Shown here: one piece after another, positions 1,136-38,954 of the stretch
Layout: the number at the start of each line of letters is the position of its first letter
Position numbering within the stretch: position 1 is the first letter of the stretch
Assembly (NCBI RefSeq): GCF_000003605.2
Contig: NW_003122882.1
Span: 1-38,954 of the forward strand
Source: Saccoglossus kowalevskii
Lineage: Eukaryota; Hemichordata; Enteropneusta; Harrimaniidae
Length of the DNA: 38,954 bases
Direction of reading: 5' to 3'
Made by a program: the position numbers and the translations under genes
The notes under the pieces: model-generated
The model's database searches: none
Seen by the model: the letters and a program-made list of their open reading frames with translations, nothing else
What the model was told of the DNA's origin: nothing

Positions 1136-1140
1136 TTGGG

Positions 1141-3407: not shown

Positions 3408-3607
3408 TAGTTTTGACTGTTGAAACCCCAGGATACTCGTGTCTACCCCTAGTTTTGACTGTTAACACCTCAGGATACTCATGTCTACCACTAGTTTTGA
3501 CTGTTGAAATCTCCGGATACTCATGTCTACCACTAGTTTTGACTGTTGAAACCTCCGGATACTCATGTCTACCCCTGGTTTTGACGGTTTAAACCTCCGG
3601 ATACTCA
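2910..3607 (+). repeat. Dispersed duplication (partner 25177-25874)
   Basis: The offset is 22267 bp. Rare shared variants are TCAAGTCTAGCACTAG, GTTTGAACCTCC, TTTTGACAGTTG, CCCCTGG and GACGGTTTAAACC. A related shorter piece with TCAAGTCTAGCAC also occurs at 5241-5434 and 23921-24114 (offset 18680). Confidence 0.88.
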
Positions 3608-3611
3608 TGTC

Positions 3612-14455: not shown

Positions 14456-14701
14456 GAACCCTCCGGATACTCTAGTCGACCACTAGTTTTGACTGTTGAA
14501 ACCTCCGGATACTCATGTCTACCACTAGTTTTGACTGTTGAAACTTCCGGATACACATGTCTACCACTAGTTTTGACTGTTGAAACCTCCGGATAGTCTT
14601 GTCTACCACGAGTTTTGACTGTTGAACCCTCAGGATACTCATGTCTACCACTAGTTTTGACTGTTGAACCCTCCGAATACTCATGTCTACCACTAGTTTT
14701 T

Positions 14702-16007: not shown

Positions 16008-18430
16008 TTTAAACCTCCGGATACTCTTGTCTACCCCTAGTTTTGACTGTTAACACCTCAGGATACTCATGTCTACACGTAGTTTTGACTGTTGAAACCT
16101 CGGGATACTCGTGTCTATCCCTAGTTTTGACTGTTGAAACCTCCTCGGGATACTCATGTGTACCCCTAGTTTTGACTGTTGAAACCTCGGGATACTCGTG
16201 TCTATCCCTAGTTTTGACTGTTGAAACCTCCTCGGGATACTTATTTGTACCACTAATTTTGACTGTTGAAACCTCGGGATACTCATGTGTACCCCTAGTT
16301 TTGACTGTTGAAACCTCGGGATACTCGTGTCTATCCCTGGTTATGACTGTTGAAACCTCCTCGGGATACTCATGTCTACCCCTAGTTTTGACTGTTGAAA
16401 TATTGGGATACTTATGTCTACCCCTAGTTTTGACTGTTGAAACTTTGGGATACTCATGTCAACCCATAGTTGTGACTGTTGAAACCTCGAGATACTCTTG
16501 TCTGCCACTAGTTTTGACTGTTGAAACGTCAGGATACTCATGTCTACCACTAGTTTTGACTGTTGAAACCTCGGGATACTCATGTCTACCACTAGTTTTG
16601 ACTGTTTAAACCTCCGGATACTCTTGTCGACCACTAGTTTTGACTGCTGAAACCTCCGGATACTCATGTCTACCACTAGTTTTGACTGTTGAAACCTCCG
16701 GATACTCATGTCTACCACTAGTTTTGACTGTTGAAACCTCCGGATACTCTTGTCTACCCCTAGTTTTGACTGTTAACACCTCAGGATACTCATGTCTACC
16801 CGTAGTTTTGACTGTTGAAACCTCGGGATACTCGTGTCTACCACACGTCTTGACTGTTGAAACCTCAGGATACTCATGTCTACCACTAGTTTTGACTGTT
16901 GAAACCTCTTAATACACATGTCTACCCCTAGTTTTGACTGTTGAAACGTCGGGATACTCATGTCTACCCATAGTTGTGACTGTTGAAACCTCGAGATACT
17001 CTTGTCTGCCACTAGTTTTGACTGTTGAAACGTCAGGATACTCATGTCTACCACTAGTTTTGACTGTTGAACCCTCCGAAAACTCATGTCTACCACTAGT
17101 TTTGACTGTTTAAACCTCAGGATACTCTTGTCGACCACTAGTTTTGACTGTTGAAACCTCCGGATACTCATGTCTACCACTGGTTTTGACTGTTGAAACC
17201 TCCGGATACTCATGTCTACCACTAGTTTTGACTGTTGAAACCTCCGGATACTCTTGTCTACCCCTAGTTTTGACTGTTAACACCTCAGGATACTCATGTC
17301 TACCCGTAGTTTTGACTGTTGAAACCTCGGGATACTCGTGTCTACCACACGTCTTGACTGTTGAAACCTCAGGATACTCATGTCTACCACTAGTTTTGAC
17401 TGTTGAAACCTCTTAATACACATGTCTACCCCTAGTTTTGACTGTTGAAACGTCGGTATACTCATGTCTACCCGTAGTTTTGACTGTTGGAACCTCCGGA
17501 TACTCTTGTCTACCAAGAGTTTTGACTGTTGAATCTTCAGGATACTCATGTCTACCACTAGTTTTGACTGTTGAACCCTCCGAAAACTCTTGTCTACCAC
17601 TAGTTTTGACTGTTGAAACGTCAGGATACTCATGTCTACCACTAGTTTTGACTGTTGAAACGTCGGGATACTCATGTCTACCACTAGTTTTGACTGTTCA
17701 AACCTCCGGATACTCTTGTCGACCACTAGTTTTGACTGTGGAAACCTTGGGATACTCATGTGTCTATCCCTAGTTTTGACTGTTGAAACCTTGGGATACT
17801 CATGTCTACCCCTAGTGTTGACTGTTGAAACCTTGGGATACTCATGTGTCTATCCCTAGTTTTGACTGTTGAATCGTTAGGATACTCGTGTGTACCCTTA
17901 GATTTAACTGTTGAAACCTACTCGGGATACTCATGTGTACCCCTAGTTTTGACTGTTGAAACCTCGGGATACTCGTGTCTATCCCTAGTTTTGACTGTTG
18001 AAACATCCTCGGGATACTAATTTGTACCACTAGTTTTGACTGTTGAAACCTCGAGATACTCGTGTCTACCACTAGTTTTGACTGTTGAAACCTCCGTATA
18101 CTCATGTCTACCACTAGTTTTGACTGTTTAAACCTCCGGATACTCATGTCTACCACTAGTTTTGACTGTTGAAACCTCCGGATACTCTTGTCTACCACTA
18201 GTTTTGACTGTTGAAACCTCGGGACACTCATGTCTACCACTAGTTTTGACTGTTTAAACCTCCGGATACTCTTGTCTACCCCTAGTTTTAACTGTTAACA
18301 CCTCAGGATACTCATGTCTACACGTAGTTTTGACTGTTGAAACCTCGGGATACTCGTGTCTATCCCTAGTTTTGACTGTTGAAACCTCCTCGGGATACTC
18401 ATGTGTACCCCTAGTTTTGACTGTTGAAAC
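16007..18430 (+). repeat. Segmental duplication, left copy (partner 33590-36055)
   Basis: This copy matches 33590-36055 at an offset of 17583 bp, covering an H module, a C-like series and a T module with the same rare variants (ACCAAGAG near 17513 and 35096; GACTGTGGAAACC near 17735 and 35318). The offset becomes 17625 after about 18216 because this copy lacks one complete 42-bp unit. The boundaries are where neighbouring variants stop matching. Confidence 0.9.
16050..16260 (+). repeat. H module: alternating 42/45-bp units (representative copy)
   Basis: This higher-order module starts with TTAACACC and TGTCTACACG. It then alternates a 42-bp unit containing CTCGGG and TGTCTATCCC with a 45-bp unit containing CTCCTCGGG and TGTACC. 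The last 45-bp unit carries TTATTTGTACC and is followed by the diagnostic ACTAATTTTG. Starts (position of TTAACA) are 1682, 2571, 3966, 9025, 9577, 10733, 11750, 16050, 18295, 18889, 19906, 21216, 24670, 29233, 31815, 32703, 33633, 35920, 37739 and 38249. Copies at 3966, 18889 and 24670 share CTAAACG in place of CTACACG and have CATTTGTACC plus ACTAGTTTTG at the end, marking a subfamily. The copies at 35920 and 38249 are short or atypical. Confidence 0.9.
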
Positions 18431-18534
18431 CTCGGGATACTCGTGTCTATCCCTAGTTTTGACTGTTGAAACCTCCTCGGGATACTTATTTGTACCACTA
18501 ATTTTGACTGTTTAAACATTGGGATACTTATGTC

Positions 18535-19723
18535 TACCACTAGTTTTGACTGTTGAAACGTCGGGATACTCATGTCTACCACTAGTTTTGACTGTTTAAA
18601 CCTCCGGATACTCTTGTCTACCACTAGTTTTGACTGTTGAAACGTCAGGATACTCATGTCTACCACTAGTTTTGACTGTTGAAACCTCCGGATACTCTTG
18701 TCTACCACTAGTTTTGACTGTTGAAACCTCCGGATACTCATGTCTACCACTAGTTTTGACTGTTGAAACCTCCGGATACTCTTGTCTACCCCTAGTTTTG
18801 ACTGTTAACACCTCAAGATACTCATGTCTACCCGTAGTTTTGACTGTTGAAACCTCTGGATACTCTTGTCTACCCCTAGTTTTGACTGTTAACACCTCAG
18901 GATACTCATGTCTAAACGTAGTTTTGACTGTTGAAACCTCGGGATACTCGTGTCTATCCCTAGTTTTGACTGTTGAAACCTCCTCGGGATACTCATGTGT
19001 ACCCCTAGTTTTGACTGTTGAAACCTCGGGATACTCGTGTCTATCCCTAGTTTTGACTGTTGAAACCTCCTCGGGATACTCATTTGTACCACTAGTTTTG
19101 ACTGTTGAAACCTCGGGATACTCATGTGTACCCCTAGTTTTGACTGTTGAAACCTCGAGATACTCGTGTCTATCCCTAGTTATGACTGTTGAAACCTTCT
19201 CGGGATACTCATGTCTACCCCTAGTTTTGACTGTTGAAACATTGGGATACTTATGTCTACCCCTAGTTTTGACTGTTGAAACCTTGGGATACTCATGTCT
19301 ACGCCTAGATTTGACTGTTGAAACCTCGAGATACTCTTGTCTACCACTAGTTTTGACTGTTGAAACGTCAGGATACTCATGTCTACCACTAGTCTTGACT
19401 GTTGAAACCTCGGGATACTCATGTCTACCACTAGTTTTGACTGTTTAAACCTCCGGACACTCTTGTCGACCACTAGTTTTGACTGTTGAAACCTCCGGAT
19501 ACTCATGTCTACGACTAGATTTGACTGTTGAAACCTCTGCATACTCATGTCTACCACTAGTTTTGACTGTTGAAACCTCAGGATACTCTTGTTTACCCCT
19601 AGTTTTGACTGTTAACAACTCAGGATACTCATGTCTACCCGTAGTTTTGACTGTTGAAACCTCTTAATACACATGTCTACGCCTAGTTTTGACTGTTGAA
19701 ACGTCGGGATACTCATGTCTACC
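18535..19723 (+). repeat. Segmental duplication, right copy (partner 3612-4800)
   Basis: This is the same unit order as 3612-4800. Small differences include CTACGCCTAG near 19302 against CTTTACCCCTAG-type spelling near 4375, and GATACTC for GACACTC near 18901. It begins where the region shared with 31477-32056 ends, so this point is a junction between two duplicated blocks. Confidence 0.9.
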
Positions 19724-22349
19724 ACTAGTTTTGACTGTTGAAACCTCTGGATACTCTTGTCTACCACTAGTTTTGACTGTTGAAACGTCAGGATACTCAT
19801 GTCTACCACTAGTTTTGACTGTTGAAACCTCGGGACACTCATGTCTACCACTAGTTTTGACTGTTTAAACCTCCGGATACTCTTGTCTACCCCTAGTTTT
19901 GACTGTTAACGCCTCAGGATACTCATGTCTACACGTAGTTTTGACTGTTGAAACCTCGGGATACTCGTGTCTATCCCTAGTTTTGACTGTTGAAACCTCC
20001 TCGGGATACTCATGTGTACCCCTAGTTTTGACTGTTGAAACCTCGGGATACTCGTGTCTATCCCTAGTTTTGACTGTTGAAACCTCCTCGGGATACTTAT
20101 TTGTACCACTAATTTTGACTGTTGAAACCTCGGGATACTCATGTGTACCCCTAGTTTTGACTGTTGAAACCTCGGGATACTCGTGTCTATCCCTGGTTAT
20201 GACTGTTGAAACCTCCTCGGGATACTCATGTCTACCCCTAGTTTTGACTGTTGAAACATTGGGATACTTATGTCTACCCCTAGTTTTGACTGTTGAAACT
20301 TTGGGATACTCATGTCAACCCATAGTTGTGACTGTTGAAACCTCGAGATACTCTTGTCTGCCACTAGTTTTGACTGTTGAAACGTCAGGATACTCATGTC
20401 TACCACTAGTTTTGACTGTTGAAACCTCGGGATACTCATGTCTACCACTAGTTTTGACTGTTTAAACCTCCGGATACTCTTGTCGACCACTAGTTTTGAC
20501 TGTTGAAACCTCCGGATACTCATGTCTACCACTAGTTTTGACTGTTGAAACCTCCGGATACTCATGTCTACCACTAGTTTTGACTGTTGAAACCTCCGGA
20601 TACTCTTGTCTACCACTAGTTTTGACTGTTAACACCTCAGGATACTCATGTCTACCCGTAGTTTTGACTGTTGAAACCTCGGGATACTCAAGTCTAGCAC
20701 TAGTTTTGACTGTTGAACCTCAGGATACTCATGTCTACCACTAGTTTTGACTGTTGAAACCTCTTAATACACATGTCTACCCCTAGTTTTGACTGTTGAA
20801 ACGTCGGGATACTCATGTCTACCCGTAGTTTTGACTGTTGGAACCTCCGGATACTCTTGTCTACCACGAGTTTTGACTGTTGAATCCTCAGGATACTCAT
20901 GTCTACCACTAGTTTTGACTGTTGAACCCTCCGAAAACTCATGTCTACCACTAGTTTTGACTGTTTAAGCCTCAGGATACTCATGTATACCAATAGTTTT
21001 GACTGTTGAAACCTCAGGATACTCGTGTCTACCCCTAGTTTTGACTGTTAACACCTCAGGATACTCATGTCTATCCGTAGTTTTGACTGTTGAAACCTCG
21101 GGATACTCATGTCTACCACTAGTTTTGACTGTTGAAACCTCGGGACACTCATGTCTACCACTAGTTTTGACTGTTTAAACCTCCGGATACTCTTGTCTAC
21201 CCCTAGTTTTGACTGTTAACACCTCAGGATACTCATGTCTACACGTAGTTTTGACTGTTGAAACCTCGGGATACTCGTGTCTATCCCTAGTTTTGACTGT
21301 TGAAACCTCCTCAGGATACTCATGTGTACCCCTAGTTATGACTGTTGAAACTTCAGGATACTCGTGTCTATCCCTAGTTTTTGGACTGTTGAAACCTCCT
21401 CGGGATACTTATTTGTACCACTAGTTTTGACTGTTGAAACCTCGGGATACTCATGTGTACCCCTAGTTTTGACTGTTGAAACCTCGGGATACTCGTGTCT
21501 ATCCCTAGTTATGACTGTTGAAACCTCCTCGGGATACTCATGTCTACCCCTAGTTTTGACTGTTGAAACATTGGGATACTTATGTCTACCCCTAGTTTTG
21601 ACTGTTGAAACCTTGGGATACTCATGTCTACCCATAGTTGTGACTGTTGAAACCTCGAGATACTCTTGTCTACCACTAGTTTTGACTGTTGAAACGTCAG
21701 GATACTCATGTCTACCACTAGTTTTGACTGTTTAAACCTCCGGATACTCATGTCTACCACTAGTTTTGACTGTTGAAGCCTCCGGATACTCTTGTCGACC
21801 ACTAGTTTTGACTGTTGAAACCTCCGGATACTCATGTCTACCACTAGTTTTGACTGTTGAAACCTCCGGATACTCATGTCTACCACTAGTTTTGACTGTT
21901 GAAACCTCCGGATACTCTTGTCTACCCCTAGTTTTGACTGTTAACACCTCAGGATACTCATGTCTACCCGTAGTTTTGACTGTTGAAACCTCGGGATACT
22001 CGTGTCTACCACACGTCTTGACTGTTGAAACCTCAGGATACTCATGTCTACCACTAGTTTTGACTGTTGAAACCTCTTAATACACATGTCTACCCCTAGT
22101 TTTGACTGTTGAAACGTCGGGATACTCATGTCTACCCGTAGTTTTGACTATTGGAACCTCCGGATACTCTTGTCTACCACGAGTTTTGACTGTTGAATCC
22201 TCAGGATACTCATGTCTACCACTAGTTTTGACTGTTGGAACCTCCGGATACTCTTGTCTACCACGAGTTTTGACTGTTGAAACGTCGGGATACTCATGTC
22301 TACCACTAGTTTTGACTGTTTAAACCTCCGGATACTCTTGTCGACCACT

Positions 22350-23745
22350 AGTTTTGACTGTTAACACCTCAGGATACTCATGTCTACCCGTAGTTTTGAC
22401 TGTTGAAACCTCCGGATACTCGTGTCTACCACAAGTTTTGACTGGTGAAACCTCAGGATACTCATGTCTACCACTAGTTTTGACTGTTGAAACCTCTGAA
22501 TACACATGTCTACCCCTAGTTTTGACTGTTGAAACCTCAGGATACTCATGTCTACCACTAGTTTTGACTGTTGAAACCTCTGAATACACATGTCTACCCC
22601 TAGTTTTGACTGTTGAAACGTCGGGATACTCTTGTCGACCACTAGTTTTGACTGTTGAAACCTCCGGATACTCATATCTACCACTAGTTTTGACTGTTGA
22701 AACCTCCGGATACTCATGTCTACCACTAGTTTTGACTGTTTAAACCTCCGGATACTCATGTCTACCACTAGTTTTGACTGTTGAAGCCTCCGGATACTCT
22801 TGTCTACCACTAGTTTTGACTGTTGAAACGTCAGGATACTCATGTCTACCACTAGTTTTGACTGTTGAAACGTCGGCATACTCATGTCTACCACTAGTTT
22901 TGACTGTTTAAACCTCCGGATACTCTTGTCGACCACTAGTTTTGACTGTTGAAACCTCCGGATACTCTTGTCGACCACTAGTTTTGACTGTTGAAACCTC
23001 CGGATACTCATGTCTACCACTAGTTTTGACTGTTGAAACCTCCGGATACTCATGTCTACCACTAGTTTTGACTGTTGAAACCTCCGGATACTCTTGTCTA
23101 CCCCTAGTTTTGACTGTTAACACCTCAGGATACTCATGTCTACCCGTAGTTTTGACTGTTGAAACCTCGGGATACTCGTGTCTACCACACGTCTTGACTG
23201 TTGAAACCTCAGGATACTCATGTCTACCACTAGTTTTGACTGTTGAAACCTCTTAATACACATGTCTACCCCTAGTTTTGACTGTTGAAACGTCGGGATA
23301 CTCATGTCTACCCCTAGTTTTGACTGTTGGAACCTCCGGATACTCTTGTCTACCACGAGTTTTGACTGTTGAATCCTCAGGATACTCATGTCTACCACTA
23401 GTTTTGACTGTTGAACCCTCCGAAAACTCATGTCTACCACTAGTTTTGACTGTTTAAACCTCAGGATACTCATGTATACCAATAGTTTTGACTGTTGAAA
23501 CCTCAGGATACTCGTGTCTACCCCTAGTTTTGACTGTTAACACCTCAGGATACTCATGTCTACCCGTAGTTTTGACTGTTGAAACCTCGGGATACTCGTG
23601 TCTACCACAAGTTTTGACTGTTGAAACCTCAGGATACTCATGTCTACCACTAGTTTTGACTGTTGAAACCTCTGAATACACATGTCTAACCCTAGTTTTG
23701 ACTGTTGAAACGTCGGGATACTCATGTCTACCACTAGGTTTGACT
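22350..23745 (+). repeat. Segmental duplication, left copy (partner 26097-27491)
   Basis: It matches 26097-27491 at an offset of 3746 bp, including rare markers: GACTGGTGAAACC at 22441, the ATATCTACC unit near 22677 and the TCGGCATACTC unit near 22872. Just before the partner's start there is a 1-bp indel difference (near 26117), which changes the local offset to 3747. Confidence 0.9.
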
Positions 23746-24368
23746 GTTGAAGCCTCCGGATACTCTTGTCTACCACTAGTTTTGACTGTTGAAACGTCAG
23801 GATACTCATGTCTACCACTAGTTTTGACTGTTGAAACGTCGGCATACTCATGTCTACCACTAGTTTTGACTGTTTAAACCTCCGGATACTCTTGTCGACC
23901 ACTAGTTTTGACTGTTGAAACCTCCGGATACTCATGTCTACCACTAGTTTTGACTGTTGAAACCTCGGGATACTCTTGTCTACCACTAGTTTTGACTGTT
24001 GAAACGTCAGGATACTCATGTCTACCACTAGTTTTGACTGTTGAAACCTCGGGATACTCAAGTCTAGCACTAGTTTTGACTGTTTGAACCTCCGGATACT
24101 CTTGTCGACCACTAGTTTTGACTGTTGAAACCTCTTAATACACATGTCTACCCCTAGTTTTGACAGTTGAAACGTCGGGATACTCATGTCTACTCGTAGT
24201 TTTGACTGTGAAACTCCAGGATACTCATGTCTACCACTAGTTTTGACTGTTGAAATCTCCGGATACTCATGTCTACCACTAGTTTTGACTGTTGAAACCT
24301 CCGGATACTCATGTCTACCCCTGGTTTTGACGGTTTAAACCTCCGGATACTCATGTCTACCACTAGTT

Positions 24369-25271
24369 TTGACTGTTGAAACCTCCGGATACTCTTGTCT
24401 ACCACTAGTTTTGACTGTTGAAACGTCAGGATACTCATGTCTACCACTAGTTTTGACTTTTGAAACCTCCGGATACTCTTGTCTACCACTAGTTTTGACT
24501 GTTGAAACCTCCGGATACTCATGTCTACCACTAGTTTTGACTGTTGAAACCTCCGGATACTCTTGTCTACCCCTAGTTTTGACTGTTACCACCTCAAGAT
24601 ACTCATGTCTACCCGTAGTTTTGACTGTTGAAACCTCTGGATACTCTTGTCTACCCCTAGTTTTGACTGTTAACACCTCAGGATACTCATGTCTAAACGT
24701 AGTTTTGACTGTTGAAACCTCGGGATACTCGTGTCTATCCCTAGTTTTGACTGTTGAAACCTCCTCGGGATACTCATGTGTACCCCTAGTTTTGACTGTT
24801 GAAACCTCGGGATACTCGTGTCTATCCCTAGTTTTGACTGTTGAAACCTCCTCGGGATACTCATTTGTACCACTAGTTTTGACTGTTGAAACCTCGGGAT
24901 ACTCATGTGTACCCCTAGTTTTGACTGTTGAAACCTCGAGATACTCGTGTCTATCCCTAGTTATGACGGTTGAAACCTTCTCGGGATACTCATGTCTACC
25001 CCTAGTTTTGACTGTTGAAACATTGGGATACTTATGTCTACCCCTAGTTTTGACTGTTGAAACCTTGGGATACTCATGTCTACCCATAGTTGTGACTGTT
25101 GAAACCTCGAGATACTCTTGTCTACCACTAGTTTTGACTGTTGAAACGTCAGGATACTCATGTCTACCACTAGTTTTGACTGTTGAAACCTCGAGATACT
25201 CGTGTCTACCACTAGTTTTGACTGTTGAAACCTCCGTATACTCATGTGTACCACTAGTTTTGACTGTTTAA
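24369..25271 (+). other. Longest open frame (300 codons); not called as a gene
   Basis: The frame begins at a TTG, not an ATG, and reads 14-15-residue repeats such as VETSGYSCLPLVLT. It ends at TAA in a GTTTAAAC unit. An antisense frame of 250 codons (24335-25087, minus) is open over most of the same bases. Its length follows from unit lengths of 42 and 45 bp being multiples of three and from the chance absence of GTTTAAAC here. There is no Shine-Dalgarno, promoter, splice structure or recognisable domain. I consider it non-coding unless transcripts show otherwise. Confidence 0.15.
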
Positions 25272-25874
25272 ACCTCCGGATACTCATGTCTACCACTAGT
25301 TTTGACTGTTGAAACGTCAGGATACTCATGTCTACCACTAGTTTTGACTGTTGAAACCTCGGGATACTCAAGTCTAGCACTAGTTTTGACTGTTTGAACC
25401 TCCGGATACTCTTGTCGACCACTAGTTTTGACTGTTGAAACCTCTTAATACACATGTCTACCCCTAGTTTTGACAGTTGAAACGTCGGGATACTCATGTC
25501 TACCCGTAGTTTTGACTGTTGGAACCTCCGGATACTCTTGTCTACCACGAGTTTTGACTGTTGAACCCTCAGGATTCTCATGTCTACCACTAGTTTTGAC
25601 TGTTGAACCCTCCGAATACTCATGTCTACCACTAGTTTTGACTGTTTAAACCTCAGGATACTCATGTCTACCAATAGTTTTGACTGTTGAAACCCCAGGA
25701 TACTCGTGTCTACCCCTAGTTTTGACTGTTAACACCTCAGGATACTCATGTCTACCACTAGTTTTGACTGTTGAAATCTCCGGATACTCATGTCTACCAC
25801 TAGTTTTGACTGTTGAAACCTCCGGATACTCATGTCTACCCCTGGTTTTGACGGTTTAAACCTCCGGATACTCA
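25177..25874 (+). repeat. Dispersed duplication (partner 2910-3607)
   Basis: This copy has the same order of rare variants as 2910-3607, with private changes such as AGGATTCTC near 25572. It follows directly on the CCCATAGTTGTGACTG series that ends the partial copy of 3612-4800. Blocks that are neighbours at 2.9-4.8 kb are therefore rearranged in order here. Confidence 0.87.
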
Positions 25875-26096
25875 TGTCTACCACTAGTTTTGACTGTTGA
25901 AACCTCCGGATACTCTTGTCTACCACTAGTTTTGACTGTTGAAACGTCAGGATACTCATGTCTACCACTAGTTTTGACTGTTGAAACCTCCGGATACTCT
26001 TGTCTACCACTAATTTTGACTGTTGAAACCTCCGGATACTCATGTCTACCACTAATTTTTGACTGTTGAAACCTCCGGATACTCTTGTCTACCCCT

Positions 26097-27491
26097 AGTT
26101 TTGACTGTTAACACCTCGGATACTCATGTCTACCCGTATTTTTGACTGTTGAAACCTCCGGATACTCGTGTCTACCACAAGTTTTGACTGGTGAAACCTC
26201 AGGATACTCATGTCTACCACTAGTTTTGACTGTTGAAACCTCTGAATACACATGTCTACCCCTAGTTTTGACTGTTGAAACCTCAGGATACTCATGTCTA
26301 CCACTAGTTTTGACTGTTGAAACCTCTGAATACACATGTCCACCCCTAGTTTTGACTGTTGAAACGTCGGGATACTCTTGTCGACCACTAGTTTTGACTG
26401 TTGAAACCTCCGGATACTCATATCTACCACTAGTTTTGACTGTTGAAACCTCCGGATACTCATGTCTACCACTAGTTTTGACTGTTTAAACCTCCGGATA
26501 CTCATGTCTACCACTAGTTTTGACTGTTGAAGCCTCCGGATACTCTTGTCTACCACTAGTTTTGACTGTTGAAACGTCAGGATACTCATGTCTACCACTA
26601 GTTTTGACTGTTGAAACGTCGGCATACTCATGTCTACCACTAGTTTTGACTGTTTAAACCTCCGGATACTCTTGTCGACCACTAGTTTTGACTGTTGAAA
26701 CCTCCGGATACTCTTGTCGACCACTAGTTTTGACTGTTGAAACCTCCGGATACTCATGTCTACCACTAGTTTTGACTGTTGAAACCTCCGGATACTCATG
26801 TCTACCACTAGTTTTGACTGTTGAAACCTCCGGATACTCTTGTCTACCCCTAGTTTTGACTGTTAACACCTCAGGATACTCATGTCTACCCGTAGTTTTG
26901 ACTGTTGAAACCTCGGGATACTCGTGTCTACCACACGTCTTGACTGTTGAAACCTCAGGATACTCATGTCTACCACTAGTTTTGACTGTTGAAACCTCTT
27001 AATACACATGTCTACCCCTAGTTTTGACTGTTGAAACGTCGGGATACTCATGTCTACCCCTAGTTTTGACTGTTGGAACCTCCGGATACTCTTGTCTACC
27101 ACGAGTTTTGACTGTTGAATCCTCAGGATACTCATGTCTACCACTAGTTTTGACTGTTGAACCCTCCGAAAACTCATGTCTACCACTAGTTTTGACTGTT
27201 TAAACCTCAGGATACTCATGTATACCAATAGTTTTGACTGTTGAAACCTCAGGATACTCGTGTCTACCCCTAGTTTTGACTGTTAACACCTCAGGATACT
27301 CATGTCTACCCGTAGTTTTGACTGTTGAAACCTCGGGATACTCGTGTCTACCACAAGTTTTGACTGTTGAAACCTCAGGATACTCATGTCTACCACTAGT
27401 TTTGACTGTTGAAACCTCTGAATACACATGTCTAACCCTAGTTTTGACTGTTGAAACGTCGGGATACTCATGTCTACCACTAGGTTTGACT
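26097..27491 (+). repeat. Segmental duplication, right copy (partner 22350-23745)
   Basis: This copy carries the same rare markers at +3746. Its left edge has an extra T (TAATTTTTGAC near 26054), a missing A (CACCTCGGATAC near 26117) and a TATTTTTGAC change (near 26138), so small indels cluster at this junction. On the right it runs straight into the C block and T module of the tandem pair at 27040-28947. Confidence 0.88.
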
Positions 27492-27660
27492 GTTGAAACC
27501 TCCGGATACTCTTGTCTACCACTAGTTTTGACTGTTGAAACGTCAGGATACTCATGTCTACCACTAGTTTTGACTGTTGAAACGTCTGGATACTCATGTC
27601 TACCACTAGTTTTGACTGTTCAAACCTCCGGATACTCTTGTCGACCACTAGTTTTGACTG
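27200..27660 (+). repeat. C block: unit series marked by GTATACCAATAG (representative copy)
   Basis: This is a fixed series of 42-bp units. The markers in order are GTATACCAATAG, a TTAACACC unit with CCCGTAG, a unit ending ACCACAAG, a CTCTGAATACACATG unit, an AACCCTAG unit, an ACCACTAGG unit, and then GTTCAAACC with TCGACC. The marker GTATACCAATAG lies near 7984, 12618, 20988, 23472, 27218, 28194, 33398 and 36698. Copies at 7966, 12600, 27200 and 28176 run almost unchanged into a T module. The 36680 copy has lost one 42-bp unit. Copies near 20988 and 33398 switch early to other unit types. Confidence 0.85.
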
Positions 27661-27666
27661 TTGAAA

Positions 27667-27868
27667 CCTTGGGATACTCATGTGTCTATCCCTAGTTTTG
27701 ACTGTTGAAACCTTGGGATACTCATGTCTACCCCTAGTGTTGACTGTAGAAACCTTGGGATACTCATGTGTCTATCCCTAGTTTTGACTGTTGAAACGTT
27801 AGGATACTCGTGTGTACCCTTAGATTTGACTGTTGAAACCTACTCGGGATACTCATGTGTACCCCTAG
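27667..27868 (+). repeat. T module: cluster with two 44-bp units (representative copy)
   Basis: The order here is a 44-bp unit (CCTTGGG and TGTGTCTATCCC), a 42-bp unit ending in CCCCTAGTGTTGACTG, a second 44-bp unit, a 42-bp unit with GTTAGGATACTCGTGTGTACC, and a 45-bp unit beginning CCTACTCGGG. The extra GT looks like a dinucleotide slippage of TGTCTATCCC. Nine copies are seen, near 1090, 8430, 10010, 13065, 17745, 27667, 28640, 35330 and 37100. The 28640 copy lacks one 44-bp unit. The 13065 copy lacks the CCTACTCGGG unit and has CATGTGTACCCC. Each 44-bp unit shifts the reading frame, so every T module ends whatever open frame enters it. Confidence 0.88.
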
Positions 27869-28689
27869 TTTTGACTGTTGAAACATCGGGATACTCGTGT
27901 CTATCCCTAGTTTTGACTGTTGAAACCTCCTCGGGATACTCATTTGTACCACTAGTTTTGACTGTTGAAACCTCGGGATACTCATGTGTACCCCTAGTTT
28001 TGACTGTTGAAACCTCGGGATACTCATGTCTACCCCTAGTTTTGACTGTTGGAACCTCCGGATACTCTTGTCTACCACGAGTTTTGACTGTTGAATCCTC
28101 AGGATACTCATGTCTACCACTAGTTTTGACTGTTGAACCCTCCGAAAACTCATGTCTACCACTAGTTTTGACTGTTTAAACCTCAGGATACTCATGTATA
28201 CCAATAGTTTTGACTGTTGAAACCTCAGGATACTCGTGTCTACCCCTAGTTTTGACTGTTAACACCTCAGGATACTCATGTCTACCCGTAGTTTTGACTG
28301 TTGAAACCTCGGGATACTCGTGTCTACCACAAGTTTTGACTGTTGAAACCTCAGGATACTCATGTCTACCACTAGTTTTGACTGTTGAAACCTCTGAATA
28401 CACATGTCTAACCCTAGTTTTGACTGTTGAAACGTCGGGATACTCATGTCTACCACTAGGTTTGACTGTTGAAACCTCAGGATACTCTTGTCTACCACTA
28501 GTTTTGACTGTTGAAACGTCAGGATACTCATGTCTACCACTAGTTTTGACTGTTGAAACGTCGGGATACTCATGTCTACCACTAGTTTTGACTGTTCAAA
28601 CCTCCGGATACTCTTGTCGACCACTAGTTTTGACTGTTGAAACCTTGGGATACTCATGTCTACCCCTAGTGTTGACTGTAGAAACCTTG

Positions 28690-29667
28690 GGATACTCATG
28701 TGTCTATCCCTAGTTTTGACTGTTGAAACGTTAGGATACTCGTGTGTACCCTTAGATTTGACTGTTGAAACCTACTCGGGATACTCATGTGTACCCCTAG
28801 TTTTGACTGTTGAAACATCGGGATACTCGTGTCTATCCCTAGTTTTGACTGTTGAAACCTCCTCGGGATACTCATTTGTACCACTAGTTTTGACTGTTGA
28901 AACCTCGGGATACTCATGTGTACCCCTAGTTTTGACTGTTGAAACCTCGAGATACTCGTGTCTACCACTAGTTTTGACTGTTGAAACCTCCGTATACTCA
29001 TGTCTACCACTAGTTTTGACTGTTTAAACCTCCGGATACTCATGTCTACCACTAGTTTTGACTGTTGAAACCTCCGGATACTCTTGTCTACCACTAGTTT
29101 TGACTGTTGAAACGTCAGGATACTCATGTCTACCACTAGTTTTGACTGTTGAAACCTCGGGACACTCATGTCTACCACTAGTTTTGACTGTTTAAACCTC
29201 CGGATACTCTTGTCTACCCCTAGTTTTGACTGTTAACACCTCAGGATACTCATGTCTACACGTAGTTTTGACTGTTGAAACCTCGGGATACTCGTGTCTA
29301 TCCCTAGTTTTGACTGTTGAAACCTCCTCGGGATACTCATGTGTACCCCTAGTTTTGACTGTTGAAACCTCGGGATACTCGTGTCTATCCCTAGTTTTGA
29401 CTGTTGAAACCTCCTCGGGATACTTATTTGTACCAGTAATTGTTACTGTTGGAACCTCGGGATACTCATGTGTACCCCTAGTTTTGACTGTTGAAACCTC
29501 GGGATACTCGTGTCTACCACTAGTTTTGACTGTTGAAACCTCCGTATACTCATGTCTACCACTAGTTTTGACTGTTTAAACCTCCGGATACTCTTGTCTA
29601 CCACTAGTTTTGACTGTTGAAACGTCAGGATACTCATGTCTACCACTAGTTTTGACTGTTGAAACCT
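28690..29667 (+). repeat. Segmental duplication (partner 37196-38173)
   Basis: This matches 37196-38173 at an offset of 8506 bp, including the shared TTGGAACC change after the last 45-bp H-module unit. The match stops at 29667, where the diverged island begins, while the partner continues with an ordinary CTCGGGACACTC unit. The partner therefore shows what sequence is expected at this point without the island. Confidence 0.9.
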
Positions 29668-29668
29668 C

Positions 29669-30165
29669 CGGGGGACCTGTTGTGTACCCCTTTTGACTGT
29701 TGTTCCTCCTCATACATACTGTCTATCTATCCCTATTGACTGTTGAAACCTCCTCCTCATACATACGTGTACCCCTACTATTGACTGTTGAAACCTCCTC
29801 ATACATACTGTCGATCCCCCCTTTTGACTGTTGAAACCTCCTCGAGATACTTATTTGTATCCCTAATTTTGACTGTTGAAACCTTCTCAGGATCCTGTGG
29901 ACCCCTCCTATTGATTGCTGATACCTCATTATAATCCTGACGACCACTCCTATTTATTGTTGATGACTCCTTATACTCCTGTCGACCACCCCTATATATT
30001 GCTGTTGAATCCTCATAATCCTCTTGACCACTACTATTTATGGCTGATGACTCCTCATGATCTTGTCGACTACTACTATTCATGGCTGATGAAACCTCAT
30101 ACTCCTGTCGTCTACTACTATTTATTGCTGATTACTCCTCACGATCCTCTTGACCACTACTATTG
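29669..30165 (+). repeat. Diverged island of old repeat units inside the array
   Basis: The repeat phase and orientation continue, but the units differ strongly from the rest. Spacings measured from TTGACTG to the next equivalent are 41, 43, 45, 43, 45, 42 and then runs of 42 bp. The first part has CATACATAC-containing units, and one of them carries CTC three times in a row. The second part (about 29911-30165) has six units such as TATTTATTGCTGATGACTCC, with tails like CTTGACCACTAC or GTCGACTACTAC. The left neighbour (to 29667) has an uninterrupted counterpart ending at 38173, where the array continues with ordinary units. The right neighbour returns abruptly to ordinary units at about 30166. 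This is either an ancient unhomogenised remnant or a piece of a related array. Confidence 0.88.
29799..30083 (-). other. Possible fossil coding frame in the diverged island
   Basis: This minus-strand frame is open for about 94 codons from an ATG. It reads as 14-residue repeats such as SGRQDYNEVSAINR and SSRQDHEESSAINS. In the same codon register the main array reads SGRHEYPEVSTVKT without a gap, and the differences are largely conservative (H/Q, E/D, V/I, T/A, K/N). Upstream of the ATG the frame continues for two more repeats and meets one TAA. Downstream, units of 43 bp shift the frame, after which the YEEVSTVN pattern resumes in a neighbouring frame. There is no recognisable domain, signal peptide or membrane segment. 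It may be a relic of a coding minisatellite or only a by-product of a unit length divisible by three. Confidence 0.25.
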
Positions 30166-31349
30166 ACGGCTGTTGAAACCTCCGGATACTCATGTCTACC
30201 ACTAGTTTTGACTGTTGAAACCTCTGCATACTCATGTCTACCACTAGTTTTGACTGTTGAAACCTCCGGATACTCTTGTCTACCCCTAGTTTTGACTGTT
30301 AAAACCTCAGGATACTCATGTCTACCCGTAGTTTTGACTGTTGAAACCTCGGGATACTCGTGTCTACCACACGTTTTGACTGTTGAAACCTCCGGATACT
30401 CTTGTCTACCACTAGTTTGGCTTTTGAAACCTCTTAATACACATGTCTACCACTAGTTTTGACTGTTGAAACGTCGGGATACTCATGTCTACCCGTAGAT
30501 TTGACTGTTGGAACCTCCGGATACTCTAGTCTACCACGAGTTTTGACTGTTGAATCCTCAGGATACTCATGTCTACCACTAGATTTGACTGTTGAACCCT
30601 CCGAATACTCATGTCTACCACTAGTTTTGACTGTTTAAACCTCAGGATACTCATGTCTACCAATAGTTTTGACTGTTGAAACCTCAGGATACCCGTGTCT
30701 ACCCCTAGTTTTGACTGTTAACACCTCAGGATATTCATGTCTACCCGTAGTTTTGACTGTTGAAACCTCGGGATACTCGTGTCTACCACAAGTTTTGACT
30801 GTTGAAACCTCAGGATACTCATGTCTACCACTAGTTTTGACTGTTGAAACCTCTGAATACACATGTCTACCCCTAGTTTTGACTGTTGAAACGTCGGGGA
30901 ACTCATGTCTACCCGTAGTTTTGACTGTTGAAACCCTCGGATACTCTTGTCTGCCACGAGTTTTGATTGTTGAACCCTCAGTATACTCATGTCTACCAAT
31001 AGTTTTGACTGTTGAAACCTCAGGATACTCGTGTCTACCCCTAGTTTTGACTGTTAACACCTCAGGATACTCATGTCTACCCGTAGTTTTGACTGTTGAA
31101 ACCTCGGGATACTCGTGTCTACCACACGTTTTGACTGTTGAAACCTCATGATACTCATGTCTACCACTAGTTTTGACTGTTGAAACCTCTGAATACACAT
31201 GTCTACCCCTAGTTTTGACTGTTGAAACGTCGGGATTCTCATGTCTACCCGTAGTTTTGACTGTTGAAACCCTCGGATACTCTTGTCTGCCACGAGTTTT
31301 GATTGTTGAACCCTCAGTATACTCATGTCTACCACTAGTTTTGACTGTT

Positions 31350-31470
31350 GAAACCTTCCGGATACTCATGTCTACGACTAGATTTGACTGTTTGAAACCT
31401 CCGCATACTCATGTCTACCACTATTTTGACTGTAGAAACCTCCGGATACTCTTGTTTACCCCTAGTTTTT
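31350..31470 (+). other. Second cluster of 1-bp indels
   Basis: Within about 120 bp there is an extra T (AAACCTTCCGG near 31353), an extra T (GACTGTTTGAAACC near 31391), a missing G (CCACTATTTTGAC near 31422) and an extra T (CTAGTTTTTGAC near 31466). The cluster sits immediately before the duplicated block starting at 31477, so it marks a junction. Confidence 0.72.
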
Positions 31471-31476
31471 GACTGT

Positions 31477-32056
31477 TGAAACCTCGGGATACTCGTGTCT
31501 ATCCCTAGTTTTGACTGTTGAAACATCCTCGGGATACTAATTTGTACCACTAGTTTTGACTGTTGAAACCTCGAGATACTCGTGTCTACCACTAGTTTTG
31601 ACTGTTGAAACCTCCGTATACTCATGTCTACCACTAGTTTTGACTGTTTAAACCTCCGGATACTCATGTCTACCACTAGTTTTGACTGTTGAAACCTCCG
31701 GATACTCTTGTCTACCACTAGTTTTGACTGTTGAAACCTCGGGACACTCATGTCTACCACTAGTTTTGACTGTTTAAACCTCCGGATACTCTTGTCTACC
31801 CCTAGTTTTAACTGTTAACACCTCAGGATACTCATGTCTACACGTAGTTTTGACTGTTGAAACCTCGGGATACTCGTGTCTATCCCTAGTTTTGACTGTT
31901 GAAACCTCCTCGGGATACTCATGTGTACCCCTAGTTTTGACTGTTGAAACCTCGGGATACTCGTGTCTATCCCTAGTTTTGACTGTTGAAACCTCCTCGG
32001 GATACTTATTTGTACCACTAATTTTGACTGTTGAAACATTGGGATACTTATGTCTA
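31477..32056 (+). repeat. Dispersed duplication (partner 17957-18536)
   Basis: The offset is 13520 bp. Both copies lack the same 42-bp unit (near 31736 and 18216) and both read TTTTAACTGTTAAC at the start of the H module. These shared losses indicate one copy derives from the other after the unit was lost. In both, the H module is shortened and leads into a CATTGGGATACTTATG unit. Confidence 0.88.
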
Positions 32057-33589
32057 CCCCTAGTTTTGACTGTTGAAACCTTGGGATACTCATGTCTACC
32101 CCTAGATTTGACTGTTGAAACCTCGAGATACTCTTGTCTACCACTAGTTTTGACTGTTGAAACGTCAGGATACTCATGTCTACCACTAGTCTTGACTGTT
32201 GAAACCTCGGGATACTCATGTCTACCACTAGTTTTGACTGTTTAAACCTCCGGACACTCTTGTCGACCACTAGTTTTGACTGTTGAAACCTCCGGATACT
32301 CATGTCTACGACTAGATTTGACTGTTGAAACCTCTGCATACTCATGTCTACCACTAGTTTTGACTGTTGAAAGCTCCGGATACTCTTGTTTACCCCTAGT
32401 TTTGACTGTTAACAACTCAGGATACTCATGTCTACCCGTAGTTTTGACTGTTGAAACCTCTTAATACACATGTCTACGCCTAGTTTTGACTGTTGAAACG
32501 TCGGGATACTCATGTCTACCACTAGTTTTGACTGTTGAAACCTCCGGATACTCTTGTCTACCACTAGTTTTGACTGTTGAAACGTCAGGATACTCATGTC
32601 TACCACTAGTTTTGACTGTTGAAACCTCGGGACACTCATGTCTACCACTAGTTTTGACTGTTTAAACCTCCGGATACTCTTGTCTACCCCTAGTTTTGAC
32701 TGTTAACACCTCAGGATACTCATGTCTACACGTAGTTTTGACTGTTGAAACCTCGGGATACTCGTGTCTATCCCTAGTTTTGACTGTTGAAACCTCCTCG
32801 GGATACTCATGTGTACCCCTAGTTTTGACTGTTGAAACCTCGGGATACTCGTGTCTATCCCTAGTTTTGACTGTTGAAACCTCCTCGGGATACTTATTTG
32901 TACCACTAATTTTGACTGTTGAAACCTCGGGATACTCATGTGTACCCCTAGTTTTGACTGTTGAAACCTCCGGATACTCATGTCTACCACTAGTTTTGAC
33001 TGTTGAAACCTCCGGATACTCTTGTCTACCCCTAGTTTTGACTGTTAACACCTCAGGATACTCATGTCTACCCGTAGTTTTGACTGTTGAAACCTCGGGA
33101 TACTCGTGTCTACCACACGTCTTGACTGTTGAAACCTCAGGATACTCATGTCTACCACTAGTTTTGACTGTTGAAACCTCTTAATATACATGTCTACCCC
33201 TAGTTTTGACTGTTGAAACGTCGGGATACTCATGTCTACCCGTAGTTTTGACTGTTGGAACCTCCGGATACTCTTGTCTACCACGAGTTTTGACTGTTGA
33301 ATCCTCAGGATACTCATGTCTACCACTAGTTTTGACTGTTGAACCCTCCGAAAACTCATGTCTACCACTAGTTGTGACTGTTTAAACCTCAGGATACTCA
33401 TGTATACCAATAGTTTTGACTGTTGAAACCTCAGGATACTCGTGTCTACCCCTAGTTTTGACTGTTAACACCTCAGGATACTCATGTCTACCCGTAGTTT
33501 TGACTATTGAAACCTCGGGATACTCATGTCTACCACTAGTTTTGACTGTTGAAACCTCGGGACACTCATGTCTACCACTAGTTTTGACT

Positions 33590-36055
33590 GTTTAAACCTC
33601 CGGATACTCTTGTCTACCCCTAGTTTTGACTGTTAACACCTGAGGATACTCATGTCTACACGTAGTTTTGACTGTTGAAACCTCGGGATACTCGTGTCTA
33701 TCCCTAGTTTTGACTGTTGAAACCTCCTCGGGATACTCATGTGTACCCCTAGTTTTGACTGTTGAAACCTCGGGATACTCGTGTCTATCCCTAGTTTTGA
33801 CTGTTGAAACCTCCTCGGGATACTTATTTGTACCACTAATTTTGACTGTTGAAACCTCGGGATACTCATGTGTACCCCTAGTTTTGACTGTTGAAACCTC
33901 GGGATACTCGTGTCTATCCCTGGTTATGACTGTTGAAACCTCCTCGGGATACTCATGTCTACCCCTAGTTTTGACTGTTGAAACATTGGGATACTTATGT
34001 CTACCCCTAGTTTTGACTGTTGAAACTTTGGGATACTCATGTCAACCCATAGTTGTGACTGTTGAAACCTCGAGATACTCTTGTCTGCCACTAGTTTTGA
34101 CTGTTGAAACGTCAGGATACTCATGTCTACCACTAGTTTTGACTGTTGAAACCTCGGGATACTCATGTCTACCACTAGTTTTGACTGTTTAAACCTCCGG
34201 ATACTGTTGTCGACCACTAGTTTTGACTGTTGAAACCTCCGGATACTCATGTCTACCACTAGTTTTGACTGTTGAAACCTCCGGATACTCATGTCTACCA
34301 CTAGTTTTGACTGTTGAAACCTCCGGATACTCTTGTCTACCACTAGTTTTGACTGTTAACACCTCAGGATACTCATGTCTACCCGTAGTTTTGACTGTTG
34401 AAACCTCGGGATACTCGTGTCTACCACACGTCTTGACTGTTGAAACCTCAGGATACTCATGTCTACCACTAGTTTTGACTGTTGAAACCTCTTAATACAC
34501 ATGTCTACCCCTAGTTTTGACTGTTGAAACGTCGGGATACTCATGTCTACCCATAGTTGTGACTGTTGAAACCTCGAGATACTCTTGTCTGCCACTAGTT
34601 TTGACTGTTGAAACGTCAGGATACTCATGTCTACCACTAGTTTTGACTGTTGAACCCTCCGAAAACTCATGTCTACCACTAGTTTTGACTGTTTAAACCT
34701 CAGGATACTATTGTCGACCACTAGTTTTGACTGTTGAAACCTCCGGATACTCATGTCTACCACTGGTTTTGACTGTTGAAACCTCCGGATACTCATGTCT
34801 ACCACTAGTTTTGACTGTTGAAACCTCCGGATACTCTTGTCTACCCCTAGTTTTGACTGTTAACACCTCAGGATACTCATGTCTACCCGTAGTTTTGACT
34901 GGTGAAACCTCGGGATACTCGTGTCTACCACACGTCTTGACTGTTGAAACCTCAGGATACTCATGTCTACCACTAGTTTTGACTGTTGAAACCTCTTAAT
35001 ACACATGTCTACCCCTAGTTTTGACTGTTGAAACGTCGGTATACTCATGTCTACCCGTAGTTTTGACTGTTGGAACCTCCGGATACTCTTGTCTACCAAG
35101 AGTTTTGACTGTTGAATCTTCAGGATACTCATGTCTACCACTAGTTTTGACTGTTGAACCCTCCGAAAACTCTTGTCTACCACTAGTTTTGACTGTTGAA
35201 ACGTCAGGATACTCATGTCTACCACTAGTTTTGACTGTTGAAACGTCGGGATACTCATGTCTACCACTAGTTTTGACTGTTCAAACCTCCGGATACTCTT
35301 GTCGACCACTAGTTTTGACTGTGGAAACCTTGGGATACTCATGTGTCTATCCCTAGTTTTGACTGTTGAAACCTTGGGATACTCATGTCTACCCCTAGTG
35401 TTGACTGTTGAAACCTTGGGATACTCATGTGTCTATCCCTAGTTTTGACTGTTGAATCGTTAGGATACTCGTGTGTACCCTTAGATTTGACTGTTGAAAC
35501 CTACTCGGGATACTCATGTGTACCCCTAGTTTTGACTGTTGAAACCTCGGGATACTCGTGTCTATCCCTAGTTTTGACTGTTGAAACATCCTCGGGATAC
35601 TAATTTGTACCACTAGTTTTGACTGTTGAAACCTCGAGATACTCGTGTCTACCACTAGTTTTGACTGTTGAAACCTCCGTATACTCATGTCTACCACTAG
35701 TTTTGACTGTTTAAACCTCCGGATACTCATGTCTACCACTAGTTTTGACTGTTGAAACCTCCGGATACTCTTGTCTACCACTAGTTTTGACTGTTGAAAC
35801 GTCAGGATACTCATGTCTACCACTAGTTTTGACTGTTGAAACCTCGGGACACTCATGTCTACCACTAGTTTTGACTGTTTAAACCTCCGGATACTCTTGT
35901 CTACCCCTAGTTTTACCTGTTAACACCTCAGGATACTCATGTCTACACGTAGTTTTGACTGTTGAAACCTCGGGATACTCGTGTCTATCCCTAGTTTTGA
36001 CTGTTGAAACCTCCTCGGGATACTCATGTGTACCCCTAGTTTTGACTGTTGAAAC
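33590..36055 (+). repeat. Segmental duplication, right copy (partner 16007-18430)
   Basis: This is the longer partner, retaining the 42-bp unit at about 35800 that the left copy has lost. It carries private changes such as CTGAGG for CTCAGG near 33642 and GATACTATTGTC near 34707, so it is a diverged rather than identical copy. At its right end TTTTACCTG (35911) replaces the TTTTAACTG of the left copy, and this variant links it to 1673. Confidence 0.9.
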
Positions 36056-37195
36056 CTCTTAATACACATGTCTACCCCTAGTTTTGACTGTTGAAACGTC
36101 GGGATACTCATGTCTACCCCTAGTTTTGACTGTTGGAACCTCCGGATACTCTTGTCTACCACGAGTTTTGACTGTTGAAACCTCCGGATACTCTTGTCGA
36201 CCACTAGTTTTGACTGTTGAAACCTCCGGATACTCATGTCTACCACTAGTTTTGACTGTTGAAACCTCCGGATACTCATGTCTACCACTAGTTTTGACTG
36301 TTGAAACCTCCGGATACTCTTGTCTACCCCTAGTTTTGACTGTTAACACCTCAGGATACTCATGTCTACCCGTAGTTTTGACTGTTGAAACCTCGGGATA
36401 CTCGTGTCTACCACACGTCTTGACTGTTGAAACCTCAGGATACTCATGTCTACCACTAGTTTTGACTGTTGAAACCTCTTAATACACATGTCTACCCCTA
36501 GTTTTGACTGTTGAAACGTCGGGATACTCATGTCTACCCCTAGTTTTGACTGTTGGAACCTCCGGATACTCTTGTCTACCACGAGTTTTGACTGTTGAAT
36601 CCTCAGGATACTCATGTCTACCACTAGTTTTGACTGTTGAACCCTCCGAAAACTCATGTCTACCACTAGTTTTGACTGTTTAAACCTCAGGATACTCATG
36701 TATACCAATAGTTTTGACTGTTGAAACCTCAGGATACTCATGTCTACCCGTAGTTTTGACTGTTGAAACCTCGGGATACTCGTGTCTACCACAAGTTTTG
36801 ACTGTTGAAACCTCAGGATACTCATGTCTACCACTAGTTTTGACTGTTGAAACCTCTGAATACACATGTCTAACCCTAGTTTTGACTGTTGAAACGTCGG
36901 GATACTCATGTCTACCACTAGGTTTGACTGTTGAAACCTCCGGATACTCTTGTCTACCACTAGTTTTGACTGTTGAAACGTCAGGATACTCATGTCTACC
37001 ACTAGTTTTGACTGTTGAAACGTCGGGATACTCATGTCTACCACTAGTTTTGACTGTTCAAACCTCCGGATACTCTTGTCGACCACTAGTTTTGACTGTT
37101 GAAACCTTGGGATACTCATGTGTCTATCCCTAGTTTTGACTGTTGAAACCTTGGGATACTCATGTCTACCCCTAGTGTTGACTGTAGAAACCTTG

Positions 37196-38173
37196 GGATA
37201 CTCATGTGTCTATCCCTAGTTTTGACTGTTGAAACGTTAGGATACTCGTGTGTACCCTTAGATTTGACTGTTGAAACCTACTCGGGATACTCATGTGTAC
37301 CCCTAGTTTTGACTGTTGAAACATCGGGATACTCGTGTCTATCCCTAGTTTTGACTGTTGAAACCTCCTCGGGATACTCATTTGTACCACTAGTTTTGAC
37401 TGTTGAAACCTCGGGATACTCATGTGTACCCCTAGTTTTGACTGTTGAAACCTCGAGATACTCGTGTCTACCACTAGTTTTGACTGTTGAAACCTCCGTA
37501 TACTCATGTCTACCACTAGTTTTGACTGTTTAAACCTCCGGATACTCATGTCTACCACTAGTTTTGACTGTTGAAACCTCCGGATACTCTTGTCTACCAC
37601 TAGTTTTGACTGTTGAAACGTCAGGATACTCATGTCTACCACTAGTTTTGACTGTTGAAACCTCGGGACACTCATGTCTACCACTAGTTTTGACTGTTTA
37701 AACCTCCGGATACTCTTGTCTACCCCTAGTTTTGACTGTTAACACCTCAGGATACTCATGTCTACACGTAGTTTTGACTGTTGAAACCTCGGGATACTCG
37801 TGTCTATCCCTAGTTTTGACTGTTGAAACCTCCTCGGGATACTCATGTGTACCCCTAGTTTTGACTGTTGAAACCTCGGGATACTCGTGTCTATCCCTAG
37901 TTTTGACTGTTGAAACCTCCTCGGGATACTTATTTGTACCACTAATTTTGACTGTTGGAACCTCGGGATACTCATGTGTACCCCTAGTTTTGACTGTTGA
38001 AACCTCGGGATACTCGTGTCTACCACTAGTTTTGACTGTTGAAACCTCCGTATACTCATGTCTACCACTAGTTTTGACTGTTTAAACCTCCGGATACTCT
38101 TGTCTACCACTAGTTTTGACTGTTGAAACGTCAGGATACTCATGTCTACCACTAGTTTTGACTGTTGAAACCT
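37196..38173 (+). repeat. Segmental duplication (partner 28690-29667)
   Basis: This is the uninterrupted partner of the segment left of the island. It continues past 38173 through CTCGGGACACTC and GTTTAAAC units into another H module at 38249. That last module is atypical: its first inner unit carries CCCTCCGAATACTCG, a hybrid of two unit types. Confidence 0.88.
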
Positions 38174-38954
38174 CGGGACACTCATGTCTACCACTAGATT
38201 TGACTGTTTAAACCTCCGGATACTCTTGTCTACCCCTAGTTTTGACTGTTAACACCTCAGGATACTCATGTCTACACGTAGTTTTGACTGTTGAACCCTC
38301 CGAATACTCGTGTCTATCCCTAGTTTTGACTGTTGAAACCTCCTCGGGATACTCGTGTCTACCCCTAGTTTTGACTGTTGAAACCTCAGGATACTCATGT
38401 CTACCACTAGTTTTGACTGTTGAAACCTCTTAATACACATGTCTACCCCCTCGTTTTGACTGTTGAAACGTCGGGATACTCATGTCTACCCGTAGTTTTG
38501 ACTGTTGGAACCTCCGGATACTCTTGTCTATCACGAGATTTGACTGTTGAACCCTCAGGATACTCATGTCTACCCGTAGTTTTGACTGTTGAACCCTCCG
38601 AATACTCATGTCTACCACTAGTTTTGACTGTTTAAACCTCAGGATACTCATGTCTACCAATAGTTTTGACTGTTGAAACCTCAGGATACTCGTGTCTACC
38701 CCTAGTTTTAACTGTTAACACCTCAGGATACTCATGTCTACCCGTAGTTTTGACTGTTGAAACCTCGGGATACTCGTGTCTACCACAAGTTTTGACTGTT
38801 GAAACCTCAGGATACTCATGCCTACCACTAGTTTTGACTGTTGAAACCTCTGAATACACATGTCTACCCCTAGTTTTGACTGTTGAAACGTCGGGATACT
38901 CATGTCTACCCGTAGTTTTGACTGTTGAAACCTCGGAATACTCTTGTCTACCAC

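Follow-up and report, generated by a model that had tools for sequence, protein, structure and literature searches.

A strongly diverged island in a 42-bp satellite array of Saccoglossus kowalevskii as a candidate relic of a higher-order module

How does a run of twelve strongly diverged units come to lie inside a satellite array whose remaining units keep close to a limited set of types, and does the order of its units record an earlier state of that array? The question arises on contig NW_003122882.1 of Saccoglossus kowalevskii, one whole contig of 38,954 bp that forms the window analysed here; genome searches covered the assembly of 572,110,611 bases in 4830 contigs. The contig is filled from position 6 to its last base, on the forward strand, by a 42-bp satellite (921.5 copies, 87% matches by TRF), which wraparound alignment resolved into 922 units, 811 of them of 42 bp and 70 of 45 bp, the last being incomplete. 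Segmentation of the contig revealed no non-satellite stretch and no mobile-element insert, and the satellite runs on both sides of the island to both contig ends.

The units fall into 48 frequent types, designated by letters assigned in the present analysis, and these types follow each other in recurrent orders, for example F D N G L B C B W C and D I K A A G H Q E M. Such modules recur irregularly along the array, and no strict higher-order period was detected (no lag of 1 to 139 units had a mean distance below 5.0). Six runs of at least 20 units were listed as long near-identical blocks, and in three of these the island lies between the two copies; one such pair, units 394-429 and 810-845, differs by 4 edits over 36 units. 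Block duplications lie at 16658 and 34241 (36 units, 4 edits) and at 22372 and 26118 (35 units, 4 edits). The array is satellite DNA with higher-order repeats: its units are arranged head-to-tail, are non-coding and belong to ordered, near-identical types, with strict periodicity absent.

Two other descriptions of the repeat were considered and rejected. A coding repeat protein (42 bp corresponds to 14 codons, and stop-free runs reach 310 codons) is contradicted by at least 673 stops in every one of the six frames, and a doubled 21-mer within the 42-bp unit gave no signal, 285 and 229 of 300 shuffles being as good. Rfam yielded no match for the array at gathering thresholds. The exact CENP-B box core has 0 matches, a result that decides nothing on a centromeric role.

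The module relevant to the island, the H module, reads L B C B W C in type letters. Type B (45 bp) is TGTCTATCCC, its tail carrying an additional CCT, type C carries TGTGTACCCC, and type W carries TTATTTGTACCACTAATTTTG, its mark being TTATTTG together with TAATTTTG. Outside the island, B-C-B-W stands in 15 places by unit type (14 by a strict DNA pattern) and B-C-B-X in four, and N G L precedes B-C-B with W or X in 14 of these 19 cases. The three types are separated by 6 (B-C), 10 (B-W) and 4 (C-W) edits.

The island comprises units 702-713 (29671-30183), whose nearest types read C B C B W C and then K K a K G K (Table 1). Each unit is separated by 7-13 edits from its closest type among the 48, compared with at most 5 for the 909 complete units outside, only eight of which reach 4 or 5; ten of the twelve differ from the consensus by at least 12. 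Measured as a relic higher-order repeat, the island thus diverges far beyond the rest of its array, and homology of type and order to the H module was found for units 703-707, weakly for unit 702, and was absent from units 708-713.

Table 1. Features of the satellite array and of the diverged island, with positions in the window
Feature	Position	Strand	Basis or remark
Satellite array	6..38954	+	Unit types recurring in recurring orders (TRF, segmentation, 48 frequent types)
Left flank, units 679-701	28690..29670	+	977 of 981 aligned positions identical to 37196-38175
Nearest ordinary H module, B C B W C, units 693-697	29286..29501	+	Segmentation, unit types
Unit 702, 39 bp, weakly C-like (TGTGTACCCC)	29671..29709	+	C, v and a tied in class calling
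Unit 703, B-like (TCTATCTATCCC, CCTCCTC tail), private front TCATACATAC	29710..29756	+	Segmentation, class calling
Unit 704, C-like (GTGTACCCC), without tail insert, private front	29757..29798	+	Segmentation
Unit 705, B-like (TCGATCCC, CCTCCTC tail), private front	29799..29844	+	Segmentation, class calling
Unit 706, W-like (TTATTTG...CTAATTTTG)	29845..29889	+	Joins W, UFBoot 96
Unit 707, C-like (GTGGACCCC), transitional to second half	29890..29928	+	Type calls; full-length tree groups it with 708-713
Second half, units 708-713, separate diverged group without class order	29929..30183	+	Distances, permutations, tree
Right flank, units 714-745, raised divergence from unit types	30184..31531	+	Mean 1.25 vs 0.47 edits

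A preliminary description, made from the letters alone, had named four motifs in the first half of the island, and all four were recovered where it placed them (TCTATCTATCCC ending at 29733, CGTGTACCCC at 29775, TGTCGATCCC at 29818 and TTATTTGTATCCCTAATTTTG at 29851-29871), in the order of the main H module. The oddity of the W unit that it reported for both is also shared, unit 706 having TTATTTG and TAATTTTG just as type W does. Its spacings of 43, 45, 43 and 45 need correction: the island motifs end at 29690, 29733, 29775, 29818 and 29863, giving 43, 42, 43 and 45, and the corresponding array spacings are 45 (B to C), 42 (C to B) and 45 (B to W, the printed 44 plus one base, as the search pattern ends one base early in W). 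The alternation of unit lengths that had been described is broken at the C unit because the spacing to CGTGTACCCC is 42; the CCT tail insert underlying it is nevertheless present in both B-type island units, masked in unit 703 by a loss elsewhere in the unit.

Taken alone, the order of the island units appears to exceed chance only modestly. By edit distance, 4 of 24 permutations of units 703-706 and 80 of 720 of units 702-707 were as good as the observed order. By affine alignment, the counts were 2 of 24 (703-706), 4 of 120 (703-707), 28 of 120 (702-706) and 28 of 200 (702-707), where 2 of 24 is the lowest value reachable for 703-706 because the two B units are interchangeable. With all twelve island units in order, 4 of 2000 shuffles were as good by edit distance.

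The match to the classes of the H module, by comparison of sequence, appears clearly beyond chance. When units 703-706 were aligned with the 633 distinct four-unit runs of the array, B-C-B-W scored best (108), followed by B-C-B-X (103.5), and the best run devoid of any H-type unit reached 82.5. Divergence was simulated for 150 non-H runs, three units of each being given the private front; none of these runs was best matched by B-C-B-W or B-C-B-X, and their H-minus-non-H score was at most -11.5, against +25.5 for the island. Single non-H units diverged by about 18% were rarely called B (7 of 3000), C (52 of 3000) or W (5 of 3000), and diverged true B, C and W units were recovered in 489, 438 and 481 of 500 trials, respectively. 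A whole-genome BLAST search with 29705-29830 (40 of 63 candidates scored, 228 matches, those listed all lying in the present contig) placed B-C stretches of this contig first after the island itself, at 80-81%, and the leading matches were mostly H modules.

A further trait of the first half is a private front of 10 bases, TCATACATAC, common to units 703, 704 and 705 and found nowhere else in the window at up to one mismatch. By bare count it is at shuffle level (3 against a mean of 3.5), yet all three copies are exact, in phase and in adjacent units; a wider form of the front occurs twice in the assembly, both times in the island. Class calling for unit 704 was tied between C and M until the front was removed. 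With the first 7-10 bases left out, the grouping of 703 with 705, of 702 with 704 and 707, and of 706 alone had the smallest within-group distance of 60 partitions computed on island sequences alone, a ranking that is not blind because the cut was chosen after the shared front had been seen.

The unit tree that the preliminary description had proposed as a check bore it out in part: unit 706 joined W (96), and units 702, 703, 705 and 704 came together (86, 59) away from B and C, beside M and q (40), with units 707-713 in a cluster of their own (90). This conflict arises because units 703-705 have the private front. In the tree built with the front removed, 703 and 705 grouped with B (70) and 706 with W (64), and 702, 704 and 707 formed one C-like group (76) unattached to C. 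The raw edit distance of unit 706 is 7 to W and 7 to B.

Descent of the first half from an H-type module is supported by this analysis of the sequence, from which it follows that the unit types and their order would predate its split from the array. Class membership, best-run alignment, simulation and BLAST agree on this point, which upholds the corresponding proposal of the preliminary description.

The second half differs from the first in having no detectable order: all 720 permutations of units 708-713 were as good by edit distance, as were 88 of 100 by affine alignment. CTACTATTTATTGCTGATGA is present within 3 mismatches in four of these six units. A G is common to unit 705 (TCGATCCC, 29809-29818), unit 707 (GTGGACCCC, 29897-29905), type K and most of the second half, B and C being without it; in units 705 and 707 this G is possibly the older state, and the second half may preserve the oldest satellite form present on the contig. 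A search of the assembly with 29900-30170 returned ten candidates, all of them scored and all in the present contig, namely the stretch itself and nine ordinary stretches at 65-68%.

The island stands in register with both of its flanks. The left flank is one copy of a recent 981-bp duplicate that stops at the left edge of the island; the other copy continues with the ordinary units D N G J B O and contains no island. An H module would be expected after this flank because 8 of 10 P(A)F(D/A) contexts elsewhere go on with N G (L or J) B; what follows is one odd unit and then B C B W C, unit 702 occupying the place where the array usually has N G L ahead of B. The right flank opens with E A G H, a context preceded by K in 14 and by A in five of 19 other occurrences of A/E-A-G-H, and the nearest types of unit 713 are K and A, tied by edit distance, and K alone by affine score. 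The W unit of the nearest ordinary H module (29418-29459), about 210 bp to the left of the island, has private changes (TTATTTGTACCAGTAATTGTT) and holds three of the four differences between the duplicates at 28690-29670 and 37196-38175.

The nearest relatives of the right flank start at unit 323. Divergence from unit types is raised in this flank and ordinary in the left one. The right-flank value was matched by 7.9, 3.4 and 0.4% of controls in windows of 10, 20 and 32 units, respectively; the 32-unit size was tried last, and because its windows overlap, 0.4% amounts to about the top one of some 28 independent windows. A symmetric halo of divergence was not detected, 7.5 to 41.5% of controls having nearest-neighbour distances as high as those of the two flanks taken together.

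We consider it moderately probable that the first half of the island (29671-29928) is a relic, a strongly diverged H module that dropped out of exchange while the array was renewed around it. The class membership of its units, their order, their shared private front and the near-identical blocks on both sides argue for this reading, as do the register kept with the flanks, the divergence of the right flank and the lack of island-type units elsewhere in the assembly; the full-length tree, the weakness of order alone and the unordered second half count against it. B, C and W would already have been arranged as B C B W C when the ancestor of the island parted from that of the present modules. Block duplication, unequal exchange and conversion would since have turned over the main array, leaving near-identical blocks on both sides, and the island stretch, out of exchange with the array, would have diverged, lost units at its left edge and swapped sequence internally.

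That the module was excluded at its present site and not imported, as the preliminary description had also proposed, we infer from this pattern, together with the time order and the exchange mechanisms; it is the H-type descent in that proposal that the comparisons bear out directly, and exclusion in place is the favoured account of the rest. No function of its own is assigned to the island, which in this reading is a by-product of satellite turnover. Distances to the own type (12 for unit 703, 7 for 704, 9 for 705 and 7 for 706) rival or exceed those between types, a relation that simple clock-like descent does not predict. With the island at least as far from the types as the types are from each other, conversion between array types or a phase of fast mutation would be needed. 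Divergence is also uneven along the island: the stretch around unit 706 is closer to the array (60 columns contain 3 substitutions and a 3-base insert), perhaps because conversion patched it at a later time.

The main rival reading, which we judge rather unlikely, is import in register, whereby conversion or unequal exchange introduced part of a separate, older or sister array as like modules paired. It draws on the sharp edges of the island, the left one ending a recent duplicate whose other copy lacks the island; that edge would fit insertion or misassembly as well as it fits a relic left in place. The fronts of units 703-705 and the sequence common to four of units 708-713 resemble homogenisation in another unit population, and a close join of the two flanks is not seen anywhere outside the island (best eight-unit join 11 edits among 895 places, best twelve-unit join 31). 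Against import stand the raised divergence of the right flank and the lack of any donor in the assembly.

The preliminary description had suggested searching the genome's other arrays for a copy of the island, and none was found: main-unit, W and island-front patterns revealed no donor array of island-type units in the 572-Mb assembly. A 23-base stretch of the common unit has 276 exact matches assembly-wide and 276 in the window, and the array is therefore seen, as far as exact matches tell, in the present contig only; TTATTTGTACCACTAATTTTG has 13 occurrences in the window and the same number assembly-wide, all in this contig. Satellite arrays are often missing from assemblies, and because they are, and because the contig ends within the array, a donor may be unassembled. 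The first stretches of contigs C1543, C1544 and C1546, which adjoin the present contig (C1545) in number but not necessarily in position, contain no unit anchor; the starts of C1544 (1-200) and C1546 (1-100) resemble other tandem repeats, unrelated by anchor count. Relatives of the unit were not found in plasmids, phages or E. coli, viral contigs had no match to exact 40-, 20- and 19-base patterns, genome contigs had none to exact 37- and 21-base patterns, and a literature text search with three stretches of the unit returned no paper.

A further reading, also rather unlikely in our estimate, is that two separately homogenised populations of one satellite share a single skeleton, the island being a sample of the second, older B C B W C array. 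Were this true, a higher-order module could outlast heavy turnover of its own sequence.

It is improbable that the island reflects a local burst of mutation, in which an ordinary H module, no longer homogenised, mutated fast, so that its divergence would not imply great age. Dead alpha-satellite arrays have been suggested to be hypermutable (PMC2729386, PMC9549924), and both the size of the island-to-type distances, which rival those between types, and the uneven divergence would suit a burst. The same 10-base front in three adjacent units and the sequence shared within the second half are, however, not what independent random changes would leave, and transitions and transversions in the island (10 and 23) show no clear difference from those among private variants of the array (141 and 252).

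An assembly artefact, a chimeric join that placed diverged satellite sequence in the array, seems more improbable still. In its favour, the contig consists entirely of satellite and the left island edge coincides with a near-identical repeat. Against it, the units of the island are related to one another, form a coherent set and keep register with the left and right flanks alike, and no other contig was found to contain the island sequence. That the match to the H module is coincidental or convergent is very improbable: order alone is weak and most island units cluster together in the full-length tree, but B, C and W calls are rare from non-H units, no simulated run in 150 reproduced the match, the class partition ranked first of 60, and H modules came first in the independent BLAST ranking.

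Relic, diverged higher-order repeats are known beside or among homogeneous ones in human centromeres (PMC9549924, PMC2729386). The relic (dead) higher-order and monomeric layers of alpha satellite described there resemble the favoured reading of the island as a relic H module: homogenisation stopped, divergence exceeds 10% against 1-2% within the array, and unit classes are still recognisable. As those accounts describe them, the dead layers lie at array flanks, whereas the island is a stretch of about 0.5 kb within the assembled part of its array, with near-identical blocks on both sides, and it differs further in being free of other inserts and in consisting of 42-bp units. Reported arrays in which old and new higher-order modules are interleaved share that interleaving with the array studied here, but, as far as those reports describe the modules, the island is far more diverged from its own array (177 of 225 aligned columns identical, 210 of 225 gap-free). 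The "segment cut off scenario", as outlined in PMC2729386, likewise has part of an array severed from the bulk and excluded from homogenisation; unlike in that outline, the island showed no sign of an inversion, a mobile element or a different tandem repeat that would have severed it.

Relic higher-order repeats are thus of a kind already known, and what is new is a small instance in a 42-bp satellite. Satellite arrays tend to erase their own history, and a diverged module that has kept its type order offers a fixed point for dating the higher-order pattern against array homogenisation; the satellite concerned has a unit of 42 bp, compared with 171 bp in alpha satellite. Leaving aside what caused the exclusion of this copy, the island indicates that the higher-order pattern arose before the array was homogenised.
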